A stretch of DNA of 64,000 bases, taken from contig CAMPDV010000102.1 of the NCBI GenBank assembly GCA_946699065.1, forward strand, positions 1 to 64,000, in the 5' to 3' direction. Shown here piece after piece: positions 25,241-63,506 of this stretch (positions within the stretch are counted from its first letter, which is position 1; the number at the start of each line of letters is the position of its first letter). A program made the position numbers and the translations under genes. A model generated the notes under the pieces. That model ran no database searches. It was not told the origin of the DNA and was given only the letters and a program-made list of their open reading frames with translations. Source of the DNA: Loxodes magnus (Eukaryota > Ciliophora > Karyorelictea > Loxodida > Loxodidae).

Positions 25241-25242
25241 GT

Positions 25243-26689: not shown

Positions 26690-27435
26690 TTCTTCTTCAT
26701 GGACTTCAATCTGATTCGGGCTGCCCGTTAAGTTTTACGTAGCAGAATTCCACGATCTTTTTGTTTGGAAGGTTAATTCAACTTGCTCTCTCTCTAAATT
26801 TTGCCATTGAAAAATTTTTTTTGTAAATTCCTTTTCTTATAATTCGAAGTCTAGAGATCTGTCTTAGCTTTTATATTTTTTCTCTTACTTGAAGTTTTTT
26901 AAGGTCTTTACAGTTTCTCATTAATAGTTTTGTTGATTTGCAATATCAACATCTTTTTCTGATTACTTGCTTTTTTGTCTCTTATAAAGATTCTTTCTAT
27001 TTCCTCTAATCTTTCAGAAATTCCTCTATTTTTGTCCTCTTTAGTTGAGTCAATATTTTATTATAATATTAAAGGAAGTGACTACTAGTATTCAGGGTTT
27101 TCTATCTTCATTTATACTACTTAACTAAATGGATGTTAGGACTGTAATCATATTTATTCTCTTGTTATGTGCTTATTTGAGACAAGTAAAGTCTTTAACT
27201 GGTCGAGTTCTTCGTTAAGCACTTCGTACTAAGTTAAAATGGATCTTAATTACTCTGAAAGGTTAAAGATTGTCTCTTTTTACTTAGATATTTTGAGTAA
27301 TAGATTTCCAACTTAATGAGATTCGTTTTTTTCTCCTACAAGGCGTTTCCCTTCATATGAGGATGACGAATCCTTGCTTTCAGTGGATTTCTCCTGCTTA
27401 CGAATTTATTGGTGAGTAAATCTCTTGGCTTTCAT
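26690..27435 (-). pseudogene. Coiled-coil/CCHC family member (copy vi), diverged
   Basis: From a possible ATG at 27435 (MKAKRFTHQQIRKQEKS) the minus strand gives an acidic/basic coiled coil (LNEELDQLKTLLVSNK) down to about 26990. A second frame then carries a zinc-knuckle-like motif at 26910-26951: C-x2-C-x4-L-x4-C, read CWYCKSTKLLMRNC, so the usual His is Leu. The layout, coiled coil then knuckle then basic tail, matches the copies at 47.6-59.2 kb. The frame change could be an intron or decay. The loss of a zinc ligand argues for decay or a changed role. Confidence 0.55.
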
Positions 27436-28333
27436 TAACTCCCTTTTCGTAAGTTTAGATCCTGCACATTTCTGATTTTTTTTCCCTGGTTAGAACATTT
27501 TTTTTTATTTTTTTTGTATCAACTTTTTAAATAACCTATTTTTTTGAAAATATCATTTCTAAAAACAAAGAACTTTCTCAATATTTGTATTTAAAAAAAA
27601 AAAATTTGACTTGATAATCATAAATCTTATTTTTCAAGCTTACTATATATGGCTTTATTTTCAGTTTTTACTGACAGTTTAATGTGGCATAATTTTTGCA
27701 CTTTTGTTAGTGATTATAGTTTTGAGCGTCTAAAATTAATCTTTACTTAAGATTCATAAGAACTTTATAGATTCCTTTTTTTATTTGCTTTAAAAAGATT
27801 AAATGTAAAGCAAGTAAAAATGTTTTTATTTATCTTCACAATGGTGAAGTTAGGGAATTTTTAAATTACTATTCGATGGTTTGTTGTTTGGAAGATTTGG
27901 GACAATAAGAAGATTTTTTCAGTTTCAACTTTCGAAAATCTTAGTAAATCATCTAGAAACCTTCGAGTAGTATTTTGCTTATAGGGTGTCATTACCACCT
28001 CTGCTAGGCAAGTATAAGTACATTATATCAGATTCGAAAATCCGTAAATTTACTATTTTTTGTATTGTTAGAATGCTTCTAAAGACAATCATAACTTCTG
28101 CTAGAGAGACATACTATCATGACGATTTATTCAAATATAAAATAAAAAACTGAGAAATGTTCTTATTTCAGATTTGAATAAAGAACCAGAGAAAGATAAG
28201 AACTTCTTGCAAAGTAATCTTTTTTTACGAGTAGATATTCAGTATTGGATTGTAACTTGCATTTGAAATAATCAAACATATTTAAGTGTGCATAGCTATT
28301 TATATTACTATGCTATTAATTTTGTCTGTCTTA
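27436..28333. other. AT-rich spacer upstream of the two-TM protein gene
   Basis: About 900 nt with T-rich tracts, between the minus-strand relic and the plus-strand start at 28334. It presumably includes the promoter of the gene at 28334. No motif supported. Confidence 0.35.
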
Positions 28334-30278
28334 ATGAAAAGGAAAATTCACGAAGCTAGGAAAGCATACATAACTCAATTTATGTAAACAGCTCAACAAA
28401 TGTTGTTTTAAGATGCACCTAAATATTAGTTTAGATTTTATTAGAAATTTTGCATTCAGAGGGTATTATTAATCACTTTATACGCTATAATTTAGTGAGT
28501 TTCTATCTTGATTTACTTTTATCTTGGAAATAAATTTGTATTACACTAAGAAAATGAGAAAAGACTTATTATGGGGTAAAAAATTGGACTGCTCGAATGG
28601 AATTTGTAGTATAAACTGTTGAACATATGATTAAACATTGTTAACCAACTGAAAAAACAGGCGAGCAATCTCTTGAAGTTCCAATTTTTGAAGGTATAGA
28701 TTTCATAAACTTCTTGATTAGAAATTTAAGGGCATATAAAGCGTTGAGATTTACGATAAAACTTTAAGAGAATCATAAGATGGTAATGCTTTGATGAATA
28801 TTGTTTCTCTTATAAGCTATGAATCATATAAATTTAGCAAAACGATAGTCGTCATTCTGTTAAAAGAACTTAATGAAATAGATTATAATGGAGTTAAGTC
28901 GTATTTTGAAACTCTATCTAAATTCTTACATTAAATGACTCTTTATAAAAGATCATATTTGGCTGGTTTTTCGTCTTTCCTGTTCTAAAAAGTGTGCAGA
29001 ATATTGGACAAAATATACCTCAGTTTGGAAAAGTTTAAATTTCCTATATTAAAGATGATTTTGTTGTGCATTCTACTCCTCTTTTCTTTTAGGCAGTTGG
29101 ATATTAAAAAACGGAAGGCTTACCCCTTTGCTATGGAATTCAAGAAAGAGATATGATAGGTCTTAAATTACATGCATAAAGCACGTATTCAAACATGTAA
29201 CGAGTGTCAAGACTTAGAGATATCAGAGAAAGTATTCCTCCATCAACTTATTAATATTGAAGATATACTGGTTGAATGGAGTAGATCCTAGAAAATTATT
29301 TGAGGAAAGTAAGTAAGCTTTACACAGTTAAAAATAAAGGCCTAAGTAAAGATGCTTTAGATATATTTTTGACTTATAAATATGACATAAAAGGGACACT
29401 TATCGTAGATTAATATTTTTATGGTAAAACGAAATCGGAAAAAGTTAAAACTAATCATGAAATTAAAGAAAATTCGCCCTTTATAATGATAGAATATACT
29501 GTTCCATTTAATTATCTGAGCTATAGCGCTATCTCTAATTATAAAAAAGGAATTTAAGCTTTTAGCTAAGCTGCTTAGTAATAGCATGCAAGGATTTTTA
29601 TTTCAGATTAGAAAAATTAAGTAGTTCTTCATGCACCTGATGAAAAAGTGCCTGATTGGAAAGAGTCAAAGAATCAACAAACTGAAGTGAGTAATCAAGA
29701 TTAAGAAACTTAATATCAAGTAGAGGAAGTTCAATAAGTATAAGACATAGAAGAAGATAATTTTTCACAATCCGATTCATGTATTTAAGTAGCTCACATT
29801 GTAAATGATACAAATTAGATGATTCAGTTTAAGCTTAATGTTACCAGTTCTGAAGACTCAAGCTTTATTTGGCAAATTAAAAAAGTTCGATTTAAGATTC
29901 CCCTAAAAAGGTAAGGTTTTATATGACCATTATTAAAAAGATTCCAGAATAGCCTTGGGGAATTTTTACCTTTGTATATAAGCATCATGTAGAATCAGCA
30001 AGATATCAGATGCTAGCTTTATAAGTTAAAATAAGATATTAGAACGTTGGAACTGATTAATTATATAGGTCCTATCTTACTCCTGATTTAGCTGCAGAAA
30101 TTTATATTAGTTGCCCAACGTGCCCACTTTACAACGATGCGAACAATTAGAAATGCGAAGTACGTTGAAGCTTGCTAAGATCCTGATTTTGCTTTTAATA
30201 ATTTTAATCATTCTCTATAATTTTTTTGGCATTAGTATTTTTTCAAAAAGCTTGACTAATCTTGAGAAAGGTATTTGA
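28334..30278 (+). CDS. Two-transmembrane protein with a large ectodomain
   Basis: Five exons with introns at 28694-28721 (28 nt), 28992-29023 (32), 29885-29910 (26) and 30160-30179 (20); the spliced length is 613 codons, ATG to TGA (30276-30278). A basic cytosolic segment (residues 1-42, MKRKIHEARK) precedes TM1 at about 44-66 (VLLITLYAIIQWVSILIYFY). An ectodomain of about 515 residues follows, with an acidic Gln-rich patch near 420-450 and two CxxC-like cysteines near its end (CPTC). TM2 at about 581-602 (ILILLLIILIILY) is followed by a 10-12-residue tail. Two TMs around a large outside domain is the layout of sensor or adhesion proteins; no Cache or other named domain can be proven. Several TGA codons encode Trp (YWRYTGW). 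Its 3' end overlaps PRPF4 tail to tail. Confidence 0.85.
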
Positions 30279-31503
30279 TGTTTACTTTTATGAATAAGTT
30301 TAAAATTTTGGAAATTAATAAAATTTGACTGAATAAGAGATGATTAAGCATTCAATTAAATATTCAAATAATTTCCAAGTACTGTCAAAGATTGAAACTA
30401 CCAACTGAATATAGAAACTCCTGTCAATTTTTTTGCTCCGATTTCTTTCTTAATTATTAAAGAATAATCAATTATGCCGTAATTATTTAAAGCAAAGTCA
30501 TATCCTACGCTTGCAAACTATCTCCAATGTATGGTTAGAATTAAACTCCTGAAGCATTATTTATTATGAGCAGGATACTCTTGGACTAGCTTTATTAGGA
30601 AAGCAGCCCAATCTTAAACCCCAAAGTTTTATAAGATACATTTTCCAGATCTTAATCTTATTCAAGAAGCATAACTGATAAATCCCATGTCATTAAAAAG
30701 AACCTTCAGGTTGATGAGCTTAACAATAAATTGGACGAGTGTACCCTTATTGCTCTAAAATACATTTCGAAGCATTCAAATCTCATAATAAAACTTTCAT
30801 ATCATGAGGGACTGAAGTTAAGTAATCTCCAGAAGGATGAAATTAAACAATTTTGGCTCTATCTTTATGCTATTTTAATTCATTTACTTTGCCCTTTTTT
30901 AAATTAATTACTTTGTTAATTTTGTTTGTAGATACAGACGAAATAAAATCAGAGGAAGGATTAACATTAACGTATTCAACTTTATCTTTATGCTAAGTTT
31001 ATTTAACTTCTTTTTAATTTCTTGCTCTCCAAAGTTTAACTTCTCCAGATCAACATGAAGCACTAAATTCTACTATTTCTCTTAAATTTTACTTAGAAAA
31101 GACACCTTTTATCGCCAACTTAACGCTTACCATATTAAGCATTGAAAGCTTATTTGTTTTCTTAATTTCTCTTATTAAATATTGATGCATAGTTGATAAC
31201 ATTTTGACTTATAACTTTCTACATATAAGCACGAAAAGCAGCTTATTTCGTTGAATATTACAAAATATTTCTCCTTGCTTATAACAAATCTTCCCTTCCT
31301 TTAATTTTTTGAAGTACTTAAGCTTCTTTCTTCCTCTTTTATACCCTCCTTAGTTACTTTTTACTTTTCTAACAGAAGCATCAAACGCCCCCTTCTATCT
31401 TCATATATTACTCCAAAATAAGCTACCTACTCCTTTAAAATTCTCAACGCTTTTTTAGTTTAACTTCATCTTTAGTATCTAATTTTATAGTTAAGAGTTC
31501 CAT
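30243..31503 (-). CDS. PRPF4: PRPF4-like U4/U6 snRNP protein (SFM motif plus WD40)
   Basis: PRPF4/Prp4 sits in the U4/U6 di-snRNP and is needed to assemble the U4/U6.U5 tri-snRNP. Near 31400 the minus strand reads the splicing-factor (SFM) motif: LRILKEQ then YFG then YEDRRGRLMLLL, matching the family pattern LGEP..FGE..DRR.RL..LL. Downstream come WD40 blades in the expected order: SASCWSGEVKLWRAR, IVQFHPSGDYLTSV with VLLWDLNASKCIL, a PAH block followed by IHWRQF and VGYD, and a last blade VVSIFDSTWKLF. At least two frame changes imply short introns I did not fix. The start (ATG at 31503, MELLTIKLDTKDE) and the stop (TGA 30243-30245) are best guesses. At about 400 residues it is shorter than the roughly 520-residue human protein. 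Confidence 0.75.
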
Positions 31504-31509
31504 TTTATT

Positions 31510-34500
31510 AAGGTTAGAATAGATCATCAAAAGATACAGTTTATTGAACTAACTAAAGTTTGCAAATAATAGAACCTTAACAACATTAAGCTCTTTTAAT
31601 TGAATAAATAGCTAAGAATATAATTCAAACTACTCATTAATCAGTCCTTTATTATTTTAATTTATCTCTAGCTCTTCATTAGGTTTCAAAGGGTTATTAA
31701 TAGCTCTTATTTATAAATCTTTCTTATCATTATCAAAATTTAGTATCTTTATTTAACTATTTCAGTCAATAAGCAATGCTATCTCTTAGTTCACCTCTTA
31801 AAATCGCTTTTATTATCTGTCTTTATTCAAACTATTATCCTCACTTTTTGGTTCTAGGTACTTATATCCTTTCAAAATCTGATTTTAATTTAGTACTAAA
31901 GTGCTGTTTAAAGATTGTGAGAAATCTAGTAGTAAAGAAATCGCATCCTTGCTATGTTGTATGAGCTTATATTTAGAATCTAGTGCTTATCTATAAAACG
32001 TATGAGAAACATACTGATACTTAAGCTTTTAGTTGTGATAGATAGTTCCTTATTTAAACTAACCCTACAAAGGCTTTTTCTTATCTATTTACTAATAGAA
32101 GCAGTTTTAACTATCTACCAAGTCAAAAGTTTGATTTTTTGCCAGAACTTAGATCCAGAAAATAAGAAGAAAGTAGTTTATAAAAACGCTACAGTAATAG
32201 AGTGAGTGTTAAGTGAAACTTTCTGATTGAGAATACCAGATAAACCCTTTGGGAAATAATTAGCTAGTTTAACTAGATTTTAAAGACTATTACCAAAAGT
32301 AACTAACGATAGAGTAACTCTACAGATTAGTATCTCCTAACTATAGATAGATTTATTAAAATCCAAATTTTGAAGGTTAATAGTTTACTTTAGCAAAGAG
32401 TAAAGATACTCCTTTATCTTTAATATAAAGATGCATTATGTATTACTTAGCTTATTAATCTTAACTTGATAACTTATTAAAGGGAAATTTATTATAAACT
32501 AGTAATATCTGAAGAGTCTTGTTATTATCGTGTATTTACTAAGAAGCTAAAATAAGATTAAGTGATAGTATTAATCAAAAGCAACCTGTTTTGTTCTCTT
32601 TTCTTTGAAAGTATTTAAACCCTTTTTTTAAATAAAGTGATATGTCTTTACTCTATATAGATACTTATACAAAGCTAAATAAAATAAAAGCTTATTGAAG
32701 CTAAGAAATCATAGTTGAAGATCTATAATTTCCAGATGCTTTATAAAAATCTGCTTCTAGTAGAATTATTTAAACAAGGAAACACTTTGAAATAGTTAAG
32801 CTATAAACTGAGCTCTTTACTTATCATTAAAGCAAACCTTATTTAAGTAACTGTATTTAAGATATCCACTCTCTTAGTATTAACTAGGATTGCTACTTTG
32901 GTATTTAGATACTTTAACTTTAAAGATTTAAGTATATTCAATGGTGATTACTTATATGGATAGTACTAGCTATTTAATTATAGAATGGTGATTGTGTTTC
33001 TTGAGATCTATACTTGCATTTTAGTCTAGAGAATCAAGTAGCTAATTATAGATAAAAGAGGCTACTGGAGTATAATGCTTATAATTAGACTTAGTTAGAA
33101 CTGAGCATTTATAACTAACTAATTCACTCTTTTGAAGCTTTATTTTTCTACCTAAAACACTAGAGAATATAGAAGCTAATGAAGATAAAAAGCTTTAGTA
33201 TGCTAAATAGTTAGTATAAGGAGAAAGCTTATTGGAGCAACTTCTGGGTAATTAGATAGAACTGTATTAGCATAATGAGCAAGATCTATTATATGCCAGC
33301 TATTATTTTTATAATATTGCTACTTATAGCTATTAGCCTTTGAAAGTAATAAAGAGCTTCTAGTCTGCTTAATTGAAGAATAAGTAAGGATATTTGTCTA
33401 TAAGTTTAAATCAGAGTCTTTCATCTTAGTTAATAGCAGCGGTTTCTTATAATAGGTCCTTTTTCCTTGCGTTTTGGCTATATCAAATAAAAACTAAATG
33501 GTTTAGTATCTTTCAAAGATAGAAATAGACTCTATTAGTGACTGGGACTAGAATGTAAATTTGAAAGAAGATTCAGCTAATTGAAGGTAAATAGTCACTT
33601 AGATACAAACTAACTTTATTAAAGCCGGTTGATGTAAAACTGGAATCTAAGTAGTCAAATAACTTAGATATAAGGAAGCTATTTTATGATTTCTAGAAAT
33701 GTTACCATAAAATTCTAAATAATGTTGATATCTTTGTAAAGCAATTAACTGAAAATTAAATCATAAAAGATAAGATATAAGTTTATCATCACCTTATCTT
33801 TAAGCTTTAGTTAATAACTCAACTTAAACAGATAAATTCTAACATATGAACTTCAGTTTTAAAGTGGAAATTAGCTTGAGAGATCTAGATATATAAAATC
33901 AGGTGAAAATACCTATTAAATTTACAAGAGATATCGAATAAGGAGCAATAAGTATTAATCTTCTGAACTGAATTAACTTAAAATGACTAGGTTCTCAAGC
34001 TTAGTCTTATTATTATTTCAAATGCTTAAACATTCTCAAATTCTTAGACTTATTTATTTAATTTAATCTTTCTAGTTTGTTTCTTGTATTAATTAGTTTT
34101 CACTTTTTTTGCTTATAACCAAACGAAGTTACTTTGTGCTTATTATTAGATCTAACTAAATCAAGCTATGAATAACTCTTATAACTAGATTTAAACCTAA
34201 ACGGTTTACTATATCTTCTATCATACTTATTTAGTCACTAGCTCGTCACTAAAATCCCTTATATTCACGATCCTTTTTTATTTTAATATTGCCTAACTGT
34301 TTAAAACTAGATCTGTGCTGGTTTTTTCTTAAAGAAGCTTTTTCAAAACCTAAAGGAAATAAAGCTTGAATAAGTGAATAATTATATCTTAACTATTTCT
34401 TTCAAAGCAGTGAAGATAAATAAAGGGTAGTAAAATAGAAATCTTAACTGTATCTATATATTTATATACTTCTCTCTATCTTTCGGCTTTAAATAACCCT

Positions 34501-34816: not shown

Positions 34817-34916
34817 GCTTTGCAGTGATAAATAAAGTAATTTAATTGATTAAGGGGATAGTAAATAAAGGGGGTTTATATTTATTAGTTTAACGATAAT
34901 AGCTGTTTATATAAAA

Positions 34917-38854: not shown

Positions 38855-39023
38855 ATAGTAAAAAAAAGTTATTAATTATTATGTTTAATTATGGAAAATG
38901 AAACCAAGTAAAGAAATCAAGTTTCTTATTTAAATTATTTTAGATTATTGGTTTAATAGCTATTAATAGAGAGTTTACACTTCTATATTTAATAATAATA
39001 TTAAGAATTTATTTTAATGGTTA

Positions 39024-39345: not shown

Positions 39346-39348
39346 TTG

Positions 39349-41600: not shown

Positions 41601-41639
41601 TTTTGGCTTTTAAAAATTTTTAACTAAAACCTTAGATCA

Positions 41640-42140: not shown

Positions 42141-42149
42141 ACTATAGCA

Positions 42150-46890: not shown

Positions 46891-47570
46891 TTTATAGTTG
46901 TTGTACAGTAAAAGTTGCAGAATTGCTTCGTTAATTTAAGTCTTAGAATCAATGCTAAATTTTTTGTTGTTGCTTCAAGGGAGTAAATTTCAAAGAGCTA
47001 GTTTTATTAGTCGATCCTGCTAGTTCTTCCTGAGTTTTTTTTTATGAGCCATTTTTTTATATAAGTAATTAGAGGAAAATAAAATAGATTATCAAGTTAT
47101 TCAGTATAAATACTAACTGTTTTCATTTTAATTATCAATGCTATAGAAAAAATGCAATAATTAAATGTCTAAAAAGGTTCTTAAATTGATGTTGTTCTAG
47201 TAATCCTTTAGTTAGAAAACTAGCACGCGGAGGTGCGCATCCAATACTGAATACCAATACTGTTTTGAAATTTTCAACTTTGAGAGCGAAATCATTCCAT
47301 TCTGATCAACTCCTTTCTAGCGTTTCTTGAGGAAAGGTAAGTATTATACAGGTGGCATCATGGAGAGAAGCAAGAAATTTAATCTTTATTTGGATTCAAT
47401 AAAGCCAAAAAGGGAGCCTATTTCAATTTAATTTAATCTTATTTAGAATAATAGTCTAAAATACACTATTCTTATTCTTTTTAGCTAAAAGTCACTTCTA
47501 GTATTATCTATATATTTTATTTTATTAATTTATGCTCTACTTGTTAATAATATATGTAAACTTAAGTTTT
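46891..47570. other. Spacer with short repeat and hairpin
   Basis: Between the 251-residue gene and copy i. Near 47220-47270 it has GCAC-GCGGAG-GTGC, a small possible hairpin, and a direct repeat CCAATACTG / CCAATACTG. No gene is seen. Confidence 0.4.
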
Positions 47571-48363
47571 TCATTATGAGGTATTTCGACCCTTTTAGAA
47601 GAAAGCGGAATTGGGAACTCGGGTTTTTCTTCCTCTTTTTTTCTGTTCTTGTCCTATCGCATCCTTCTTGATTTTATAAATTTCTCCGCTCGGAATACAA
47701 TATATTCGGTTTAATCTTGTTTCTTCTTGATTCTTTCTTCGTTTTTCTTGAATCCAGTAGTTCATTTTTTTCTGCTAGGATTTCTTACATTTCCTATATA
47801 AATGCTATAGGCTTTAACAACAGAATCATTTTTCTCCTAATTTTTATTTATCCCTATTTTCTTTAAGGTTTTCTAATAACTTTTCTTTAATCAACATTAG
47901 GTCCCTTTTATGTTCTCTTTTCTCCATCTGAAGTTGTAATTTTTGCTAGCTTTCTTCTATTTTCTCTATTCTATTTCCAATTTCTGTCTGCTTCTATTGC
48001 TAGCTTTAAGATTGGTTTTTTTAATCTTATGAAAGGCTTCAGAAATCAATTAAATCTCTTTCTGGAACATGATTCTTGAATTGATTTCTTTTTGCTTGTT
48101 AAAATCCCTTCTAATTTTTGATTGTCAGTCTTTAATCTTTTCACCTCTTCCTGAAGGTTTAGCACAACTTTAACTAGCCTTTCATAGCTAATCATTTTTT
48201 CAGTGGTGAATTTCGTAATCTTTTGGTGTATTATGTTCTTAGCGTATTTCCTAAGTTTCTCTTCTGATGTAGGAGTTTCGACTTGGTGAGGCTCTTTTCT
48301 ATTATCTTTTTTATCTAGTCTATAGGAATTTAGTGTTAAGAATTTAGTTTTAAAAAACAACAT
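47571..48363 (-). pseudogene. Coiled-coil/CCHC family member (copy i)
   Basis: From ATG 48363 the minus strand reads the family N-terminal block (TSEEKLRKYAKNII) and coiled coil (LVKVVLNLQEEVKRLKTDNQ). Near 48070 the good frame shifts by one nucleotide (PERDLIDF, matching QERDLNAF in copy iv) and continues through a Gln/Lys-rich coil to the knuckle CCQSLQHLYRKC, a basic NYWIQEKRRKNQ block and TGA 47571-47573. The first knuckle Cys is TGA (Trp) here, where copy iv has TGT. The frameshift and lost ligand suggest a decaying copy, unless a very short intron restores the frame. The protein is not recognised beyond a Gag-like coiled-coil plus zinc-knuckle layout. Confidence 0.7.
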
Positions 48364-48399
48364 GGATGTAAGAATTGACGCTTCATGCTTCCTTTCTTA

Positions 48400-50690
48400 C
48401 TCTTAGTATGCTGTATAGAATTTCTTTCTGAAGTCGTCCGATTTGTATTTTTTTATACTCTACTATTTTAATCTAAATTGAAAGCAGAGATCTTTAATTA
48501 GGTCTATAAATAAAAGCTATTTATTACACATACTTTATATATAAACTAAGCTTATGAATAATTACAACTTAATGATAGTATTTTATACCTGCTAAGTCTA
48601 ATATTTATGAACTAAATACATGCTTTTAATAAATAAATATTGGCAATAAAGAGAATGATAAGAGCTCCAGAATAAAAGTCACTGATATATAAAAAAAGAA
48701 AGAGTGAGATATTAAACTATTTCCACTGATTCTAATGCAAGTAAGTATGCAGCTTATATAGATACTATGACATATAGAAAGGATAATAAATATTAAAAAT
48801 TTAACAATTAAAGGAATATGATTAAGAGAAAGAATGAAAAGATATACAAAAATGGGGTTTAAATGAGAATAATAAAGTAATCTAAAAATGATAATAAGAA
48901 AGGATAAACATGTGATTTTTCTTTATAGGATAAAGGAGTTTAGTAGAATAGAGAAGTTGATTAAAGTAAAATAAAGAAGATTTTATAATATTGAGAAGCA
49001 AAACGTTAATGGAGTAAATAAAAAGCTTATGAATAAGATTGAAAAATTAATCAATAACAACTTTGATCAAAAAAGTGAGTCCATAAAAATAAATAACATA
49101 AGAGAAAAAATAAAACTCATATATTTGATAGATAAGTGGACCGAGTAATTAACAGTATCCCTGCATCTAATGTAAATGACTAAATTTAACCGACAACAAA
49201 AAATATTATCTCTCGACTAATATATCGAATTGCTATAAATGTGGTAGAAAAATCAATTGGAAAAGTAAATTGAAATCTGCATCTAATTAATATAGTTTGC
49301 TTTAAATGTAATAGATAAAAGGCTCCATAATCTCAATCGTTCCACAAAATTCTAATATATATTATTAGTAACTAATACGATAGGAAAAACGCGACACAGA
49401 ATAACGAGTCTCCCATGTCTATATATGAATTAAAAAAGTAAATATGTCTCTCATTTATGCAAATTATTGAAAAAGCGAGCAAAAAAACTACAGATAAAAA
49501 TATTTAAAATATACTAAAAGTAGAAGCGTCAGATATAAAATAGTATCCCCAGCGACTAGAGTAAATAAAAATATAGCTTGTAAAATAATTAAGTGACAAG
49601 AAAGGAAAATAGATTGAAAAATTAAAAAAATTAAAATGCTTAAAAGCAAAATTAACAAAATATGGGAACTAATATCGAACGAGACCAATAATTTAAATTT
49701 AAAAATGCTAAGCAAAGAATAAACAGGATAAGCAAGTGACTTTTCTATATGGAATAAGGTAGTTTATAGGATAAAGAAGTTGAATAAAGAGAAATTAATA
49801 AAGATATTTTAGTATAAATAAGCAAATGGCAAATACAAAGATTTCAAGCTTTTACAAAAGAGATATAAAATTAATGAATAAATATTTAATTAAGAATAAA
49901 AAAGGCTGAGTCTAATAAACGTAAATTACAGAGAAGCTAAAATATTAACATATGTGCTATTTAAAATATAAAAGTGCATCGAATAATAAATCTGTATTTA
50001 AATTAGCTGACAATATAAAAACCATATAAATATGAGATCTTCGCGTCTAATATATGTGACTTAATTTAAGAGGGATATATAAATCAACTGCATAAAGAAA
50101 TGTTTCTCCCACATCTAATATATTGATTAGCCATAAATGTGATTGGTTAATGCTGCAGATATAAAGCAATGCCACATACTTCTTATCTTCTTTTAGTTAC
50201 AGATTAGATGTACGAAATAACGACAGAGAGCATCGGATCTTTTTGTCAATTCTTCGATTATGTCATAAGCATACTTGACTTGAATGTATAAAATTATACT
50301 TTCTAGTGTTTATAAATGTCCAATGATACAAAATTTTTAAGTAGAAGATAAGAAGCATTAGATGGTAAATCATATCAATCACGTTTTTTTAATTATTATT
50401 TTTAATGGAAAATTCTCATCAAAATTTTTTTCGCTACATTCGTCAGATATTTCAGAATTATTGCAATAAAGATAGGTAATCTAGTACTTTATTTCGGTTT
50501 TTTATCGTTATATTAGACCCCATTATATAAGTAATTTTTTTATAATAAAAATCACTATATTTTTATTCTACGGAATCTCGAATATGAAAATAACTAGATA
50601 TGTAGAAATCTTAAGTAGTTATAGCAAGAAACTCACAAAGAAAAACTTTTCATACTACTTTTTTTGAAATTAAAGTTTACATATCTAAGA
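48400..50690. other. AT-rich region with degenerate short repeats
   Basis: No confident gene. Diverged blocks with a core like CATCTAATATA recur: 49160, 49215 (GACTAATATA), 49279, 50043 (GTCTAATATA) and 50111. Several are followed at 10-15 nt by a variant of GCTATAAATGTGG or GACTTAATTTAA. They look like relics of a tandem or dispersed repeat. Confidence 0.45.
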
Positions 50691-51101
50691 AAAATGCCTA
50701 GTTAGCCATTTTGAGATTTAAAGTATCCTGTAATCCATGTTGGATCTACTGTGATAGCTTCTCGTTCTCCTTCCTGAGCTTTCTGACCTCTTCCTAGAGG
50801 TTAGGACCACTTTGATGAGCCACTCCATGTTCATCTAACCAGGGATTGAAATCAGAGGCCTCCTGGTGAAGTGCAGACTTCATCTACTTCATTGACTACT
50901 CCTCCGACGTTGGCGTTTCAGTACGTGTCGCTTTCTTAGGCTGTTTCCATTCTTCTTGCTATATTCCAGGTTATTAAGAAGAAAAAGATTTGGGTTAGGT
51001 GCAAGAAGACTGATGAAAGTGGTTTCTGGATTTCTCTCCTTTTTTGTGGAGGTGGCATAAAATCCTTTTTTGAAACCTTCAACCATTTTTTTATTATTCA
51101 A
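50690..51101 (-). pseudogene. Coiled-coil/CCHC family member (copy ii), 3'-truncated
   Basis: ATG at 51101 or 51086 gives MVEGFKKGFYATSTKK, the family N-terminus. Then comes PTSEEQSMKQMKSALHQ, close to copy iii, and the start of the coiled coil (LQEEVRKLRKENEKLSQQ) in a frame offset from MEWLIKVVL just before it, implying an indel. Family similarity ends near 50700. No knuckle is present, so this copy is broken and truncated. Confidence 0.75.
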
Positions 51102-51630
51102 TTTATTAAAATTTATTTATTTAAAAACATTTATAAAGAATATAATTTTTATAAGCTTTTCTTATGTAATATTATACTTTTTTTAATTAATTTATTATTC
51201 ATTTTTTTATCATATAATATTAGTTTCAAATTTGTTTTAATGCGAAATTTCTGAAGCAAGAGGACCAATATTTTATTAATCCCATAATTTATTTCCTATA
51301 CATTCTTTTATCTGAAAACTATTACAAAAAGATGATTATTTAAAATTATATATGTTTTTTATTATATTATTTTAATTACTTTTATACTCTCAAAGATAGT
51401 TACAATTCGTATAAGTATTTTTTCCAAATTAAAAAAATCTAATCTCAATTCTTATTTCTTTAATTTTTTGATTTCCTTAGGATAAGTTCAATTGGAATAG
51501 ACTAGTTGTCTCATTGTATTTTATTTTAATCTATCTATTATTAAAAGTTGTTTCTATTTTTTTAGCCTTTTTTTTAAATTTTTTGCTCTTATGTAATAGT
51601 CTTTTTTCACTTTATTAAGATATAAATAAA
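51102..51630. other. AT-rich spacer
   Basis: T-rich DNA between copy ii and the 108-residue family copy. No gene seen. Confidence 0.4.
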
Positions 51631-51960
51631 ATGAATATAGGCTGTGGTCAGGAAACCTATTAGGTAATCTGGTGCACTGTATACTACATTGCGAGTAATC
51701 TCGCACTAAATACCACTACAGGTAAGGATGGACAAGCTCGGAAGAGAAAAGCCCAACTAGCCTGAGGAATCTCGCTAGTAGTATGAAAGTTTGACTGACG
51801 AGCCTTCTAATTAATGACTTAAATAATTAATTCTTATTTGGACCTTATTCAAGAAGGCTGGAGCATTTGATTCCAGATTTTAGAATAATCTTTAATAAGT
51901 AGATTCCCCATTTGGTGAAGCTGACATGACTCATTGGACTACTAGTATTTTAACAAGAAG
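51631..51960 (+). pseudogene. 108-residue family, broken copy
   Basis: ATG 51631 opens MNIGCGQETYQVIW, then YIASNLALNTTTGK, clearly homologous to the intact gene at 63507-63833 (SNLALNATTGK). After the RKRK block it has a 1-nt insertion relative to that gene, so the middle (YESLTDEPS) is in another frame. A further 5-nt excess restores the frame at INSYLDL. The C-terminal part (QEGWSI) stays similar, then diverges. No clear stop. Most likely a pseudogene. Confidence 0.7.
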
Positions 51961-51999
51961 TATGAGAACATTTTTCTTAATATTAAATATTAATATTGA

Positions 52000-53210
52000 A
52001 AGAGATGCGTCCCAATGAGGTGCTATGCGTTCTATAATCATTTTTATTTATTTAAGCAATTAATCATATTTTTATTTTTTGCTCTTCAAATTTTTTAAAA
52101 TACCTTCTAATGAGTTAAAACAAAGTTGGACATCTTTCTTATCTAGTATGAATTTAGATATCATTCTATTGTTAAACTATTATATAAACCAATGACAGCT
52201 CTTTTTGGAGTATAGTTTTGTACGCTTTTTAGTTTATTCCATAGATTCGTTCTTTAATCAGCTATGAAAGGGAAAAAGTTGTAGTAAATCTTCCGAAATT
52301 TCTTTCATCCGTTATTTTCGAAATTTTTTTAATTATTTCTATCTCGGTTATAGAGTTTTATCGATGTTTGCTTGATTGTGTATTTTAGATAAGTTTAAAC
52401 AAGATATCATCAAAGAAATCACTCTTTAATTTCTAATTTTCTTCCCTTTTAGTCAGTTGAAGGTTTTAAGCAAACTGATATTTCTAAATTTTTTATGGTT
52501 TAAAGAAAATAAGTTTTTTTTTCTTATTTAGAATGATATTTTAAAATTTTTCTCGTAGTTTTCTTTAAATTAAAAAAGCAGAAATACTTAAAGAAGTTTT
52601 TCTCCATTTTTAAGATTTTTTATATTTTCCCATTTTTTTTCTTTTTTAATATTCCTTTTTATATTAGATTTTTTATAAACAAAATTAAGCCATTTTAGTT
52701 TTTTTTATTTTTTCTTGTGTTTTAGCGTTTATTTTTAATTTTGTAAAACTCAATTCTTAATAAAAAGGATATAATTTTAGCTATAACTTCAGTATTATTT
52801 CATTTATGTTTTTATTAAAAAAGTTTTTTTATTTATTTTGTAATTTTTAAATTTTGATTTTTATATTTGCATATTTTTGTAAAATTTCATTTGTAAGTTA
52901 AATTAATAATTAAGTTTATATTATGTGGTTATGCTTAACTATGATTTAGAAATTATTATTTAAATTAAATTCTTTTTTCTTCTAATTTTTTTAATTAAAA
53001 TTTAATTAATGAAGACTTATTGAATTTGAGAAATTGGATTTGATTAACTGGATATTTATAATTATAACCTTGTGACTCTTAACTCTTAAAAAAGAGTTCT
53101 TAAGCTTTTTCTTTTTCTTGTACTTTTGCTTTTTCTTTATATTCAAAGAATATTTAGTTTGTCTAAAACTTATCAAGCAAGTTGTTGCTAAGTCATGATT
53201 AAGTTTTTTT
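52000..53210. other. T-rich low-complexity spacer
   Basis: Long T-rich stretches around 52500-52900. No gene or clear repeat seen. Confidence 0.45.
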
Positions 53211-53409
53211 AAGATTACTCGATTGATTTGAATGACGCTATACAAACTGGAAATTATGAGAAAAATTTGCCAGTTTATTATGAGTAATCTAAATTATAAA
53301 AATCTTTGAAATTTTCTAGTTTATTTACTGAGCATCAGTTATAACATCATATTTTCGAAAAAGCAAACTTAGTAACTTAGAACTTTTTCAAAAATATTTT
53401 TTAGCAAAT

Positions 53410-54610
53410 CTGTCTAAAAATACACAATAATTGAGAATAAATTTAGAGTAAAATATCAAAAACAGGGATTTTGTAGCAAATTTGAGAGAAATAATATGGT
53501 GATTTGAAGCAATGTTGCAAAAACAATCTGAAAAAGTGAAAAAATAAAAGAAAAATATAAGAATTATTGAATTTATTAGCAATTTGCACAAATAAATTCA
53601 AAAATTTATAATTATTATTAGTAAAGTCCAGAAACTATTGATTTAAAGGAAAGGTTTCTTTAAAAAATTATATGAGGATAGAACTAGTTAAATAATAGTA
53701 CAGAAGGAAAAATATAAAAAAGTGAGAGTATCGTTAAATTTGTTCAACAATTTTTGGATGAATAAACATTAGAAGAAAGATTAAAAATTCCTTAAAGCAA
53801 TATAAAATTAAGCAAAAAGATCGAAGTTTAATAGCAACTTATTTAGTTTAAAGATAAAAATTTCAATTAAAATTGATAGATGTAATAATGCTATTCAAAA
53901 CACGATAATAAATGGAATCAGCAGCAGTAAGTGTAATGTCAATACTAAGCTTTATAAATTTCGAATTAAAATAAAAGAAATTATGAGGAAATAAGAATAA
54001 AAGGCGCCAAATTAACAGCATCATCTTTTTTAGACTATAGTTTGAAAAATACTCAGATTTAAGAAGCTTAAAAATGCTAGCCTCAAGAACACTAATTTTG
54101 AATATAACGTAAACTTATGAACTCCTGATATTTTTAAAGTCATTCAGATTATATACGGTCTATAGCAATCTCAAATGATAACCAGTGAATTTAGATAAGA
54201 AATAATTTAAAAATTATGAGACTTGAAGAGCAGTTAAATAAAAACACTTTTGATAGCCATATAAAATGAGTTTATTCATTAACTGTCTCAAATGGCATTA
54301 ATTGAATTGAATCAAGTAATATAGACAAAATAATAAAAGTTTAGGATTTAATAAACAGTTTATCAGAGGCAATTTAGAGGACATACTTAATGTTACCTTA
54401 TCAAATGGCAATACATTTATATATTCAGGAGGTAACGATAAAAATATTATAATATGAAAGTTTAAGAATGACAGTTATATTGTATTTAAGTTGGACACAC
54501 AGAATGAATAGGTTCAGTGAAAATAAATAAGCATAATGAGTGAAAAATATCAAATATTAATGAAAATGTTTAAAAAAATTGAAATTATAAAAGTGGAAAG
54601 CTGTAAGAAC
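53410..54610 (+). pseudogene. Degenerate WD40-repeat gene
   Basis: At 54138-54603 the plus strand reads four WD40-like blades: SHSDYIRSIAISNDNQWI; SHIKWVYSLTVSNGINWIES then DKIIKVQDL; LEDILNVTLSNGNTFIYSG then DKNIIIWKF; GHTEWIGSVKINKHNEW. They sit in at least two frames, and in blade 2 the Trp of the usual WD pair is TAG (Gln). Upstream, 53410-54130 gives charged text (NLREIIWWFEAMLQKQSEK) that could be its N-terminal part. Short introns could explain the shifts, but weak blades and the lost Trp favour decay. It is not close to the kinase-linked repeats at DNA level. Confidence 0.5.
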
Positions 54611-54619
54611 ACTAGAAGA

Positions 54620-55590
54620 ACATATAGATTGTAAGTAATGCGGCAATAAACAATTAAAAAAAAGGATATATCTAGTAGTTACATAGAAGATTTCAAAATT
54701 TGAGAATCAGAAACAGGTTAAAATAAAAATACTTTAACAATTATTGAAAAAAATTCTCAGTAGTAATAAATAATAAAATAAAAGAGTCAATTCATGAGGA
54801 TTGTGACAAAATCATGAGAAAATATCTTTATAAATTTTTAATATCATGTCCCTAAAATATTAAGTGTAGAAAGAATTATTAGTAAAAATCAAGGAATTAA
54901 GTTAAAACTATCTAACAGAGCTTATGGATTATTCATATAAAATTGCAGTTTTAGCAATATAGTGCTAAAGAGCAAGACAAAAATTTACTTGCAGTCGAAT
55001 GATTTGAAATTTAAATTTAAACACTTTTTAAATTTAAAAAAGATTAAAGCAAAAATTAAGTAGTAAAAAATTGAAAATTAAAACTAAAAATTCTAATACC
55101 AAAAGTTTAAAAAAGTTGTAAAATAGATTAAATCTTTTAAAAGGAAATTAAAAAATTGAAAGAAAAAAAAATCAAAATTTATTTAATAGAAAAGATTAAA
55201 AACTGTAAAATAATAAATAAAATGTATATTTAAATAAAAAAAATCAAGGTGAAAAATTAAATTTTAAAAATATTAGCAATTTAGAAGAAACAGTCTAAAA
55301 AATTTTAGAAAAAATAAAATAAAATAGATAATGCTAAAATAGAAAAGAACTCTATATAATTAAAACAAAGTTTTTTTCAATTTTTTAAGGGATTTTTTCC
55401 TATTTTTCAGCAAAAAAATTATATATTAAGATTTTTCAATAAAAATTAATTTTGCTTTTTTTTAATTTTGCTTAATTTTTTATGATAAATATCTTTTTTT
55501 AAAGTATATTTTTATGAAGTGTTATTTCTTTTAATTGAAATCTTAATTTTGAAGTAATAGTTGCTTAAGATTTTTTTAATTCTTGAATTA
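54620..55590. other. A-rich then T-rich spacer
   Basis: Lys/Asn-rich frames without motifs, then low-complexity T-runs to the start of copy iii. No supported gene. Confidence 0.35.
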
Positions 55591-55594
55591 AAAA

Positions 55595-56488
55595 ATGGAA
55601 GGATTCAAAAGAGGTTTCTACACCACCTCCAAAAAGTTGGAGAGGATACCTGAATCCAATGTTGGCCAATCTTCTTTTTATTAACCTTAATCTTCTTCTT
55701 AATCTTAACAACCTGGAATTCAAATAGGATATGACGAGCAGAAGAAATCCAAGAAAGTGACTCACGTAATAAGTCCTAGATCGGAGGAAAAGTCAAGAAA
55801 GCAGATGAAGTCTGCTCTTCACCAGGATATCAGAATTTAATCCTTCTGGCCAGATGAACATGGAGTAGCTCATCAAAATGGTACTGAACCTCCAGGAAGA
55901 GGTTAGGGAACTGAGGAAAGATAGTGAGAAGCTTATGGAACAACTCAGCCTAACAGGAAGGAATAGAATCCAGACTTATGCCTAAGAAAGAGAACTAAGC
56001 GCTTTCTGAAACATATCCTAAGACCAGATAAACTAATTCTAAAATTAGCTTCAGAAACAATCTGATTTTATTTACAGACTGAAAAAATTAGAAAAGTAGC
56101 TAGACGAACAAAGGGGAGATTAATGATGATTGAAGAGATCTACATGAAGACTAGGGTTAAACCACAAAAAGTAGTAAAGAATTGTTACTACTGCAATTCG
56201 ACAAAACACTTGTGAAGATGCTGGATGAAATTCCAAAATTTCAAGACGTAGTATTGGAATAAATAAAGGAGAATACAAGCAAAGCAGAGGAAGAAAAAAC
56301 AAATGAAATAGAAACAAATCAGAGAGAGATTATACCTAATTGAATTAGGTTCCATCTACAAGAGAAAATCCGATTAGAATGAAGATAGAATTGGAAATGA
56401 CATTATCAATGGGAGAAGAGAGGAAGAAAGATCTTTAAAACTTTATTTTTAACACCGGAGCAATCTGGTGTCCAGCATGAAGAGGTGA
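55595..56488 (+). pseudogene. Coiled-coil/CCHC family member (copy iii)
   Basis: ATG 55595 gives MEGFKRGFYTTSKKLERIPE, the clearest family N-terminus, followed by SPRSEEKSRKQMKSALHQ. The coiled coil MEQLIKMVLNLQEEVRELRK and the block AQERELSAFWNIS lie in the +1 frame. The knuckle returns in the first frame as CYYCNSTKHLWRC, one residue short between His and the last Cys compared with copy iv. A basic tail ends at TGA 56486-56488 inside a conserved 3' hairpin region. At least two frame breaks and the shortened knuckle mark it as probably inactive. Confidence 0.75.
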
Positions 56489-56496
56489 AAATCCTC
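56452..56496 (+). other. 3' hairpin pair of copy iii
   Basis: ACACCGGA-GCAA-TCTGGTGT forms an 8-bp stem (one G.U) with a GCAA tetraloop. It is followed by GAGG...CCTC. The same layout occurs in copy iv with a different stem sequence. Confidence 0.65.
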
Positions 56497-56684
56497 AATA
56501 ATTATTAAAGTTAATTTATCCTATTATTATTTTTTTTGTTTATTTTGGGATCTTAAATTCTCGCTATATTTTTGATTTTTGATTTAATAAAAAAAGTCAA
56601 GTACCTTAAATTTTATTTGAATTCTTTAAATTAATGATTAATTTTAAATAAATTAGATTATTTTTATTTTAGTAAGAAGAATAA

Positions 56685-57797
56685 ATGATTTAAAGGAATT
56701 AAAATCTTTATATTCTGTTTTTGAGAAAGAAGATTAGAAACTCTAAGTAATTAGAAGGAATATATTCTATTGGGAGACTAGGAATTGGCGTGATTAAATA
56801 CGAAATTTGTGCAAACTTGTTTATAAAAAAGTTTAAAACCATAACTACAATAATTAGAAATTCAGTCTAAAAAAAGGATTATCTAATAGCTAAAGATAAT
56901 TTTAAAAGTCAACAAATTAACATTAAAAAAACTAATAACTGCTTTACTTAAATAGCCTAATTATCAGATGAAAGCATTTTATCTTCAGGAGGTTTAAATT
57001 TAAGTTAAAATTGTTTTACAATTTATTCTCAACATTTAGAAGCATTACAGATGCAAATGCTTTTTGAAAGATTTGGACATAGATCTGTTTTTAACAAAAA
57101 GGATTAAATTTACATAATTTCAGGATTAAGCTTATGTGATAATTCTATCGAAGATGTTTAATAGTGTGAAACTTTCAGTATGAAATTTAATAAATTCAAA
57201 AAGATAAAGTCAATTTTGTTGCCTAGTCGCACATTTGGAAGCGATTATGTCGAATAAAAAATATGCGTATTTGGTGGATACTGCAGTAAATAAGATCAGG
57301 TCATAGATAAAATTTAGCTATATTGTAGTAATAGAAACGACTGAATTTTATGTGATGCGAAACTATAAAATGCTTCTTAAACTTCAGCCCTTTTAATTTC
57401 CTTTTTAAAATCCTTTCTTATTTATGGAAATTCCTCAGAAACAGAAACATAATTATTCGACTTTAAAACTGTATAAATTTAAGGAGAAAAATATCCTGCT
57501 CAATACAATCTATATGACTATACTTAACCAACTCAAAGTGGATTTTATGTTTTTTAATATAATTTTGAAAGTTAATTATTTAGGTATGATTTGAAAGGAA
57601 GAAAGTGGAAATTGATTTTAGAATCAAATTTTATACTTTAAACTTTAATCTACATTAAGTAATTTTTATTTAATTTCATTAGAAAAATCTTAAAATTTTA
57701 GATGATGAAAATATAAAAAAAGGAATTTTTGCTAATTATTATTTTTAATAAAAAGTATCAAATAAATATGGATGTAAAATTTTCTATAAAACTATGA
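56685..57797 (+). CDS. Kelch-repeat protein
   Basis: One frame from ATG 56685 to TGA 57795-57797 (371 codons) reads a Kelch-type beta-propeller protein, probably a protein-interaction scaffold. Visible blades include SDESILSSGGLNLSQNCFTI, FERFGHRSVF then IYIISGLSLC, SRTFGSDYV then KICVFGGYCS with LYCSNRNDWILC, LIYGNSSETETQLFDF, and SQLFRYDLKGRKWKL. These show the repeating R..H/FGS...V....I..FGG..........Y....ndW pattern. The first about 20 residues and the last about 40 are less protein-like, so the true ends may differ through a short intron. Four to five blades are recognisable. The Kelch partner is unknown. Confidence 0.75.
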
Positions 57798-57965
57798 AAA
57801 TTAATATTTTCAAATTATTTAAAAAGAGGTAAAATTAAAAAATTTTTAATTAATTATCAAAAATAGAACTAAACATTATAAAACAAATTATATAAAACAA
57901 AGCTTTTTAATATTTTTAATTACAAATGAGATAGAAGTATAAATTGAAAAATAAATAATTAAAAA

Positions 57966-58250
57966 GATGGTGGGAGCTGAGATTGATCTTCTGAATCATA
58001 CTTTCTGGCTTTATGGCTAGGAACAAGTTCCTTTCCTGTCGCCGAGAAAGTTCCTGGTCAAAGTCAACCTTTGCAAGGGAACGCCTTCCTCTTGATTATC
58101 CACTCCTGGTAGGGGCTTGAAGCCTGGCTGCACATAGCGATGGAGCTCCCTGGCAGCTGCTTTTCGAAAGCAACAGGATATCCCCGTTATCCCATGAAGG
58201 GAGTGTTGGGGTCGTTAAACTGCAAGAAGTTGCAGTCCAAAAGCTCTTTT
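57966..58250 (+). ncRNA. GC-rich island, candidate structured RNA gene
   Basis: A sharply bounded block of about 285 nt near 50% GC in DNA of about 20% GC. It contains several self-complementary pieces: CTGCAA-GAAG-TTGCAG (about 58221-58236), GCTTT-TCG-AAAGC (about 58159), and GGAGCTCC (about 58142). It ends just before a T-run, as a pol III transcript would. Size and composition fit an RNase P/MRP or SRP-class RNA, but I could not match a diagnostic core. Protein readings exist in all frames, as always with this code, and none is clearly better. Strand is inferred from the terminal T-run. Confidence 0.4.
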
Positions 58251-58294
58251 AGTTTAAAATTAATTAAATTAAATTAAATTAAAAAATAAAAAAA

Positions 58295-59180
58295 GTGTCA
58301 GGATTCAAACCAGGATTCTTCACGGTTCCTAAAAAGTAGGAGTTAACGACATCCTAGAAAGGCTAGGACCAGGAAAATGGTAACAAAAAGGTCACCCATC
58401 AGGATGAATCTCCCATCTCTGAAGAAAAGTCTAGAAAATATGCTAAGAATATTATGCGCTCGGAAGTCTCGAATCTCACCACATAATAGTAAATAAACTT
58501 TGATTAGCTGATTAAACTAGTGCTAGACTTCCAGAAAGTGGTCAAAAAGTTGAAGAAAGACAATAAGAAGTTAATGGAAAAACTTGAACATGCAGAGGAA
58601 ATGGAATCGAGACTCATAACCTAAGAAAGAGACCTTAACGCATTTAGAAATATATCAAAAGACTGGAGCAGTTAATCTCAAAACTAGCAATAGAAGCAGA
58701 AAGAACTAATCAGCAAATTAGAAAAAATAGAAGAAAATCAGTACAAATTGCAGCTTTAAATGGAATTGAAAGAATAAAGAAATTATCCAATGATAATTGA
58801 AGGTGAAAATAACTCAAGATTTAAACCTAAACGACAAACGAAAAGATGTTACTATTGTAACTCTCAAAAGCATCTGTGGAAAAGATGCTAGAAATTTCTT
58901 AATTTCAAGTAAGAATATTGAAACCATTAGAAGTAGTTGGAGAACAAAAGGAAGAAACAATAACAAATAAAGCTATCAAGAGAAAGAGAAAGATTATACT
59001 GTAACAAATTTGGGAAATTTACAAGAAAAAAAACATCTATCATCTAGGAGAAAGAAAAATTAAAGGACAACATGCATGGCAAGGAGAAGAGTTTTAGAGA
59101 TTTTCAGATTTTTATATTAAGCCTCTAGAGCAATCTAGAGGCTGGCGGGAAAGAGGTTGAAATACCTCAAAGAGCGCCAA
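58295..59180 (+). CDS. Coiled-coil/CCHC family member (copy iv), most complete
   Basis: One frame runs from GTG 58295 (SGFKPGFFTVPKKQ; the ATG of copy iii is GTG here) through SPISEEKSRKYAKNIM, the coiled coil (FDQLIKLVLDFQKVVKKLKK), TQERDLNAFRNISKDW, a long Gln/Lys coil, and a complete zinc knuckle C-x2-C-x4-H-x4-C (CYYCNSQKHLWKRC, about 58851-58892). A block NFKQEYWNHQKQLENKRKKQ and a basic tail follow. No stop is seen in this frame before the conserved 3' hairpins. Coiled coil plus CCHC knuckle is the layout of retroelement Gag-like nucleic-acid-binding proteins; no polymerase, integrase or transposase is seen next to any copy. Loss of the ATG may mean it is inactive. Confidence 0.7.
59122..59179 (+). 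other. 3' hairpin pair of copy iv
   Basis: CCTCTAGA-GCAA-TCTAGAGG is a perfect 8-bp stem with a GCAA tetraloop. Next, TGGCG (59143-59147) can pair with CGCCA (59175-59179) around the inner hairpin GAGGT-TGAAAT-ACCTC (59153-59168). It occupies the place of the hairpins at the end of copy iii. Confidence 0.65.
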
Positions 59181-59199
59181 ACATTTAATTTTGTATTTG

Positions 59200-63500: not shown

Positions 63501-63506
63501 ATATTA

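Follow-up and report, generated by a model that had tools for sequence, protein, structure and literature searches.

Four stretches of the window (the whole 64-kb stretch of Loxodes magnus DNA analysed here) are old copies of a short mobile element. With a probability of about 85%, the family to which they belong is a non-autonomous non-LTR retroposon of ~930 bp, that is, a solo-ORF1 element mobilised in trans. Its single ORF is ORF1-like and comes without endonuclease (EN) or reverse transcriptase (RT), as seen from the alignment of the unit and from a Pfam scan of ten members; since the element has no copying enzyme of its own, it most likely borrows the machinery of larger elements. The first-pass annotation had proposed a non-autonomous family encoding a Gag-like protein (coiled coil plus knuckle) with no polymerase of its own, which agrees with this composition; its mobile or amplified character is borne out by hundreds of copies of one subfamily and by flanking target-site repeats. 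The genome searched comprises 705.7 Mb and was read with genetic code table 27 (TAA and TAG encode Gln, TGA encodes Trp); pseudogene calls made here without table 27 misread Trp codons as stops.

A profile built from young copies detects the four stretches with best-domain iE values of 1.9e-19 (48.4 kb), 3.4e-18 (51.1 kb), 1.9e-41 (55.6 kb) and 1.1e-53 (58.3 kb). With a broader profile the corresponding values are 8.9e-47 (48.4 kb), 3.3e-21 (51.1 kb) and 1.2e-36 (55.6 kb), and its value of 1.1e-86 for the 58.3-kb copy is not independent because this copy is included in the profile. Both orientations are represented, with two copies on each strand, and the copies display a DNA similarity of 67-73% among themselves over 171-362 bp. 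The layout first read from the window alone is found across the four copies: a start block, a SEEK..RK block, a coiled coil containing LVLNLQEEV and a QERxLxAF block, followed on the C-terminal side by a CX2CX4HX4C knuckle, the motif NFK..YW and a basic tail.

The copy at 48.4 kb (copy 2; 47542..48451, minus strand) is, from its profile matches, a complete but frameshifted solo-ORF1 element in which the first knuckle Cys is altered. It shares 77-79% DNA identity over ~850 bp with the genomic loci L002 and L006 and lies between direct repeats of 13 nt that differ at one position: the target-site duplication on its 5' side (48452..48464, minus strand) is identical at 12 of 13 nt to that on its 3' side (47529..47541, minus strand). 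The copy at 51.1 kb (copy 3; 50740..51095, minus strand) is represented by its N-terminal half only, which matches the profile in two frames, at positions 1-95 and 14-114; the homology ends past the coiled coil, after ~123 profile positions, and the DNA identity with copy 4 is 73%. Copy 4, at 55.6 kb (55590..56531, plus strand), is a frameshifted full-length member of the young subfamily, with an exact match to the 5' 45-mer of this subfamily and 82-83% DNA identity over ~950 bp with L031, L035 and L049. Its last knuckle Cys is altered (displaced), and inspection of its ends and flanks revealed no clear target repeat. Under table 27, copy 5 (58.3 kb; 58288..59205, plus strand) is a single open frame running through the coiled coil, the knuckle and the basic tail, and matches profile positions 24-284 in one frame. 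It has GTG in place of ATG and a partly deleted N-terminal block, and its flanks show no clear target repeat. Its TGA at 58919 falls in a conserved Trp column, where TGG is present in 16 of 26 rows and TGA in four.

The first-pass annotation had counted five copies, four of them damaged by frameshifts, truncation and lost zinc ligands. These lesions are all present: copies 2 and 4 are frameshifted and have an altered knuckle Cys, and copy 3 is truncated. Three copies are thus clearly damaged, while the one at 58.3 kb is open and merely lacks an ATG. The fifth claimed copy, at 27.4 kb (26690..27600, minus strand), contains no recognisable family member and was rejected for want of a significant profile match or a meaningful DNA match. 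The young-copy profile at domE 0.01 reported nothing at 26.7-27.6 kb, the broader profile gave an iE of 1.8 (score -3.3), comparable to chance matches at other places in the window, and blastn against the fetched loci returned short matches only (best E 6.9e-4).

Genome-wide, the repeat unit measures ~930 bp and has sharp ends: an A-run, an ATG, one ORF of ~290 aa and a (TTA)n tail. An alignment of 24 young copies displays common borders for a single unit ending in the (TTA)n tail, with 5' and 3' ends that are unlike and no terminal repeats; these copies were chosen as high protein matches, so the 13 of 24 with a single frame do not represent a rate. Counting the ends of this one young subfamily (at most 3 mismatches) gave 591 3' ends and 681 5' ends, against 0 for the reversed-pattern controls. 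We also examined 20 copies picked by their exact 3' end, namely those among the first 100 listed minus the ones seen in the long-ORF list. Nineteen align along almost all of the ~930 bp with 94-97% identity, one as two separate segments, and the remaining copy is 5'-truncated. The six test motifs never occur together in a single frame among these 20; two copies contain five of them. Many copies are broken or frameshifted, and the ORF is not intact in the young copies L031 and L032. At least 131 long single-frame ORF matches are present in the genome (18,569 candidates), with identities that score reassigned codons as mismatches, so that the query's own locus stands at 91%; of 100 exact 5' ends listed, at least 26 fall in such matches.

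LINEs with EN and RT, which the first-pass annotation had advised looking for, are present elsewhere in the genome. One of ~5.5 kb was found via its RT (150 of 3403 candidate loci were scored), and its endonuclease domains match PF14529 (3.4e-8) and PF03372 (8.4e-8). In the window itself, blastn with the RT parts of the fetched LINEs gives no match at E 1e-8, in agreement with the earlier remark that no polymerase lies nearby. The first ~90 bp of the short element match the 5' end of this LINE (78% over 93 bp with copy 3, E 2.6e-12), whose N-terminal protein likewise has a CX2CX4HX4C knuckle. These two resemblances would be expected if the copies were truncation products of an autonomous two-ORF LINE carrying the same ORF1. 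We consider this unlikely, since the unit possesses a 3' end of its own, is present whole in 19 of the 20 copies picked by that end, and encodes a protein without profile similarity to the LINE protein in the three LINE types inspected. Comparison of the ORF with the N-terminal proteins of three LINEs by hhalign detected no relationship (probability 0.1, E 0.49; the misframed row L043 was left out of the short-element profile used here), and neither this ORF nor this exact 3' end was met on any LINE of the three types. The tails also differ, being (TTTA)n in the LINE and (TTA)n in the short element; that of the mammalian HAL1 elements is poly(A). A 3' end common with the LINE is not claimed, as the likeness is merely a short A+T-rich motif, and the label "RRM-like" for the LINE N-terminal protein, an impression only, is withdrawn.

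The ~290-aa ORF comprises, in order, the N-terminus, the coiled coil, the CX2CX4HX4C knuckle and the basic tail. An AlphaFold2 model displays one helix over residues 85-168 and a low-confidence N-terminus, which is disordered; the heptad score was equalled in 5 of 300 shuffles. The Pfam scan of ten members found a sub-threshold knuckle in six (PF00098, best E 0.028, 14.7 bits for a cut-off of 20.8) plus weak chance-level matches, and a search of PDB profiles with the family returned nothing meaningful. In frame, the pN/pS ratio of six diverged rows is 0.29 (L059), 0.41 (L069), 0.43 (copy 5), 0.43 (L025), 0.49 (L054) and 0.52 (L062), against 0.80-1.17 for the same rows in shifted frames; this control covers 6 of 13 diverged rows, the seven others having ratios of 0.47-0.71 without frame control. 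The close pair L069/L025 has a ratio of 0.73. Judging from these substitution ratios, the ORF frame is conserved between subfamilies. Within the young subfamily the ratios do not demonstrate selection (0.40 in frame, 0.50 and 0.84 shifted, in copies picked for long ORFs).

One explanation for this conservation would be a split system, in which endonuclease and reverse transcriptase come from the LINE, an RNA-coating coiled-coil protein for both comes from the solo-ORF1 element, and the shared 5' module keeps both RNAs under one control. We regard it as improbable; if true, it would constitute a mutually dependent split non-LTR retrotransposon, with an ORF conserved because both partners need the protein.

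At 24 of 33 insertions, a direct repeat at least 9 nt long flanks the element, compared with 4.5% of 2000 mismatched flank pairs, and the repeat length varies from 9 to 16 nt. This analysis left out seven of 44 copies for which no borders could be found, and among the 33 insertions counted as distinct, several seem to duplicate a single site (L037, L038, L042 and L046; L039 and L053). A target repeat of variable length together with a 3' simple-repeat tail corresponds to target-primed reverse transcription (TPRT), and the flanking repeats therefore indicate LINE-type retrotransposition. In LTR elements, target repeats are short and of fixed length. The coiled coil, the CX2CX4HX4C knuckle and the basic tail do recall the Gag gene of an LTR retrotransposon deprived of its pol and moved by LTR-element machinery. 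This very improbable origin is largely refuted because the 5' and 3' ends differ in the 24 aligned copies, which lack terminal repeats, because the repeats at the flanks range in length up to 16 nt and because the tail is a simple repeat. Despite the ORF conservation between subfamilies, host genes or domesticated Gag relics are refuted at the level of the whole family by hundreds of near-identical copies (many 94-97% alike, with common ends) with target repeats at unrelated sites, many of them frameshifted, so that neither the relic suggested earlier nor a set of single-copy host genes intact once spliced is supported; a single domesticated member is possible.

For the preferred trans-mobilised solo-ORF1 element, each copy would be an RNA-derived insertion. 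The RNA may be transcribed like that of the LINE, because the 5' module is shared. The protein would multimerise via its coiled coil and coat its own RNA, which would explain the conservation of the ORF. A resident LINE would lend its endonuclease and reverse transcriptase to insert the RNA by target-primed reverse transcription. Mobilisation in trans is consistent, at the level of sequence, with the target repeats and with the resident EN+RT LINEs. The available text on the L. magnus LINEs rnd-1_family-27 and -19 describes them as autonomous, 5-6 kb long and with EN+RT (PMC11441545), and LINEs of this type are the likely source of the machinery; ORF1-only elements are not mentioned in that text.

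The 5' leader was also inspected for RNA structure. An HDV-like ribozyme was considered because GAAN'CC could pair with a GGNTTC close to the start; diverged ribozymes of this kind can escape Rfam. The candidate found no support: the A-run and the ATG precede the stem, an Rfam scan of the window at gathering thresholds found no HDV family, and cmscan on four short copies up to E 2 gave three matches, none to an HDV family and all far below gathering scores (best MIR1887, E 0.0073). RNAalifold predicted zero pairs on 27 leaders. A 5' stem named by us pairs in 82.6% of cells and scores 0.142 for covariation (each value reached in 0 of 500 shuffles), and two other measures of it were equalled in 105 and 132 of 500 shuffles. 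This signal comes mainly from one pair (columns 12-74) in related sequences, and a conserved 5' stem is only suggested. A 3' stem ahead of the tail was dropped (one copy folded, z -0.9).

Compared by description, the element resembles the solo-ORF1 elements A-G of Paramecium tetraurelia, which the available account presents as non-autonomous, thought to be mobilised in trans and ending in a 3' simple repeat, (TAAA)n, in three of seven (PMC5405496). Both types have only an ORF1-like ORF and a 3' simple repeat. The Paramecium type, as described there, carries a LINE-ORF1-like zinc finger towards the C-terminus of its ORF; in Loxodes, the ORF and the LINE both have the CX2CX4HX4C spacing. Unlike the Paramecium elements as described, the Loxodes element has an ORF without detectable relation to the N-terminal proteins of three examined LINEs and with a basic tail after the knuckle; it ends in (TTA)n, shares its 5' end with a resident LINE and numbers several hundred copies in one subfamily. 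The mammalian HAL1 (half-L1) is, in the sources consulted, likewise a non-autonomous LINE relative with ORF1p only (PMC5753468, PMC4859970), and L1 ORF1p is described as trimerising through its coiled coil (PMC5940361). HAL1 is an L1 derivative with the ORF1p of L1, whereas the Loxodes element has only the 5' end in common with a LINE. A short 5' sequence common to an autonomous LINE and short partners recalls the trypanosomatid Pr77 hallmark, described for L1Tc/ingi and NARTc/RIME/SIDER (PMC4748587); the short partners are there reported as non-coding, unlike the Loxodes element, and Pr77 as carrying an HDV-like ribozyme, for which Rfam gave nothing in the four Loxodes copies.

The repeats of the 706-Mb Loxodes assembly are mostly unclassified in the published account as available (PMC11441545), and the present analysis provides a described element family for them. 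ORF1-only retroposons, already known in Paramecium, would by this comparison be extended to a karyorelict. As karyorelicts represent a deep split among ciliates, such retroposons may be old and widespread in this group. A non-autonomous element with an ORF conserved between subfamilies also offers a handle on why a polymerase-less parasite keeps a protein.

A neighbouring repeat of ~440 bp (51611..52071, plus strand) terminates in the 3'-terminal sequence of the 5.5-kb LINE and is either SINE-like or a truncated LINE. It aligns over 430-460 bp with 63411-63839 of the window, with L007 (166-598) and with L032 (2239-2682), and its positions 51981-52052 are 82% identical to the final ~70 bp of the LINE (E 8.7e-12).

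The short element is a non-autonomous retroposon of the LINE type that carries ORF1 only, a kind already known elsewhere; the Gag-like non-autonomous class proposed by the first-pass annotation was nearly right. The alignment of 24 young copies (recent and near-identical) reveals shared borders: on the 5' side the unit opens with an A-run and an ATG, and on the 3' side it closes with ...AATTTATCCTATTATTA(TTA)n. The genome searches covered the assembly of 705,730,643 bases (7843 contigs), in which the window makes up the initial 64 kb of contig C102. With the copy at 48.4 kb of the window (reverse strand; copy 2) as tblastn query, the best 150 of 8259 candidates were scored, the last with an E-value of 1.5e-13. 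The ORF of a young copy, used without its first ~15 residues, gave at least 132 matches (131 of 18,569 candidates scored) with 78-91% identity, reassigned codons being counted as mismatches; most of the listed matches contain three in-frame TGAs. The young 3' end (43-mer) and 5' end (45-mer) occur 591 and 681 times, respectively, in the genome with at most three mismatches, and the reversed-pattern controls gave 0 occurrences. For the resident LINE, an EN+RT non-LTR retrotransposon, 1732 3' ends were found versus 395 5' ends. The LINE is therefore short of 5' ends, as is usual, whereas the short element is not, with the caution that these patterns differ in conservation. Twenty further copies were sampled by exact 3' end, outside the long-ORF list: 19 are near-full-length units, one of which aligns in two pieces, and the remaining copy begins at position 795. 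In none of the 20 do the six test motifs all fall in one frame, and in two copies five of them do, so that broken copies are common.

The flanks of 44 copies were analyzed; borders were located in 37, and 33 of these were taken as separate insertions. In 24 of the 33, the two flanks have a string of at least 9 nt in common (median 12), versus 4.5% of 2000 mismatched pairs of control flanks (median 6). With these repeats and hundreds of 5' and 3' ends, the mobile family previously claimed is real. Target-primed reverse transcription is marked by duplications of variable length and by a tail of simple repeats. The insertions of the short element are RNA-type.

The genetic code is NCBI table 27. 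Beyond 10.5 kb, the window contains 6 frames of at least 100 amino acids with the standard code versus 343 with TAA and TAG as Gln, many of which arise by chance. In-frame TGAs are also numerous in the RT genes of the genome, and TGA and TGG are exchanged at conserved Trp columns of the short-element family (17/1, 14/2 and 4/16; 26 rows in each column). The published MAC assembly of Loxodes magnus (PMC11441545; 706 Mbp, thousands of RVT_1 copies) uses the same code, in which a TGA sufficiently distant from the downstream poly(A) tail is Trp. In the short-element ORF of locus L035 (66-935), no further in-frame TGA follows the third one before the element end; the stop may be this third TGA, depending on its context, or may lie outside the element.

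In the window, BLASTN connects the regions at 58.4, 55.9, 51.1 and 48.3 kb with 67-73% identity. The profile built on young genome copies detects these four copies, as does a broader profile which itself includes copy 5 (58.3 kb). Of the five copies initially described, four are thus retained, and the one at 27.4 kb was detected in the window by neither profile. Under table 27, copy 5 has a single frame across profile positions 24-284 and its apparent stop is a Trp codon; GTG replaces ATG and the N-terminal block is partly missing. Copies 2 and 4 (55.6 kb) each contain frameshifts and one altered knuckle Cys, and copy 3 (51.1 kb) retains the N-terminal part alone. Copy 2 is bordered by a 13-nt target duplication with one mismatch, and inspection of the flanks of copies 4 and 5 showed no clear duplication. 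A G+C-richer repeat (57953-58288) adjoins copy 5, and its relatives also adjoin truncated copies in three fetched loci (L003-L005).

The reading frame is kept between subfamilies. Compared with young copies, the in-frame pN/pS is 0.29 (L059), 0.41 (L069), 0.43 (copy 5 and L025), 0.49 (L054) and 0.52 (L062), versus 0.80-1.17 in the two shifted frames. This frame control covers 6 of the 13 diverged rows; the other seven, several of them frameshifted, have in-frame values of 0.47-0.71 without frame control. Pairs among diverged rows gave 0.38, 0.40 and 0.53, and the close pair L069/L025 gave 0.73. Within the young set, the in-frame value of 0.40 is not distinctive (0.50 and 0.84 in the shifted frames), so that this set does not demonstrate recent selection.

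The EN+RT LINE is the likely helper of the short element. LINEs of ~5.5 kb were located through their RT (PF00078; best 150 of 3403 candidates scored), and an endonuclease is detected in one frame of L022 (PF14529, 3.4e-8; PF03372, 8.4e-8). Four fetched copies align across ~5.5 kb, L019, L020 and L022 with 96-97% identity and L027 with 87-88%. The first ~90 bp of the LINE match the start of copy 3 (78% over 93 bp, E 2.6e-12) and of copy 4 (75% over 69 bp, E 6.7e-5), so that a 5' module is common to both elements. This stretch reads as coding in the short elements, where its indels are 9 nt long. Of the four LINE copies, two have no ATG there, and the main frame of the LINE begins further downstream. 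The CX2CX4HX4C knuckle is also present in the N-terminal protein of the LINE. The starts match, but the profile comparison reveals no similarity between this protein and the short ORF, and the 3' end of the short element was met on no LINE among those encountered; a derivation of the short ORF from the LINE is thus unsupported. On the reverse strand of L019 (~3110-4789) and in L022 (from ~4755), the N-terminal CCHC region and the endonuclease start share a frame with no clear break, and possibly form one long ORF rather than two. RT matches exactly 2532 bp apart on contigs C20 (2028-7877) and C5131 (12904-26349) are tandem arrays of a LINE fragment; the LINE 3' ends on C20 repeat this spacing.

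The short-element protein contains ~290 residues. Its predicted structure displays a low-confidence N-terminus and a single helix over residues 85-168, and the overall predicted fold is unreliable because of a mean pLDDT of 66.1 and a pTM of 0.23. The heptad score was matched by 5 of 300 shuffled sequences. The CX2CX4HX4C knuckle gives a sub-threshold PF00098 match in 6 of 10 members, and the basic tail has 14 K/R versus 2 D/E over the 52 residues taken. No convincing relative was found in the PDB (one match at E 0.96).

The module common to both elements would drive transcription, the short-element protein would coat its own RNA, and EN/RT would come in trans. Seven solo-ORF1 elements with a zinc finger at the end, likely trans-mobilised and three of them with a (TAAA)n tail, are described in the Paramecium germline (PMC5405496), and ORF1p is the sole product of mammalian HAL1 (PMC5753468); the Loxodes family would work like both. 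Trypanosomatid LINEs and their short partners have a common 77-nt 5' module (PMC4748587), a sharing also seen in the Loxodes family. Among the papers retrieved on ciliate non-LTR ORF1 and solo-ORF1 elements, and in passages of the Loxodes paper, we found no report from Loxodes. Two features of the family deserve further attention: the 5' module in common with the LINE and the conservation of the ORF over long periods.

Other repeats are present in the window. Positions 1-10500, at the contig end, are a ~10 kb tandem satellite (97/104 bp) with a strong C-over-G skew. Direct repeats of 126 bp (12778-13553, with a displaced copy at 25195-25446) resemble, by eye, WD40 repeats. A ~440-bp repeat, perhaps a SINE whose tail comes from a LINE, has similar aligned lengths in four places (window 51611-52071 and 63411-63839, L007 166-598, L032 2239-2682); the last ~70 bp of the copy at 51611-52071 match the LINE 3' end, and positions 63124-63185 give another, separate match to a LINE end. 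Finally, the 860 bp at 62128-62987, with 94% identity to L032 3953-4832, are another young dispersed repeat.
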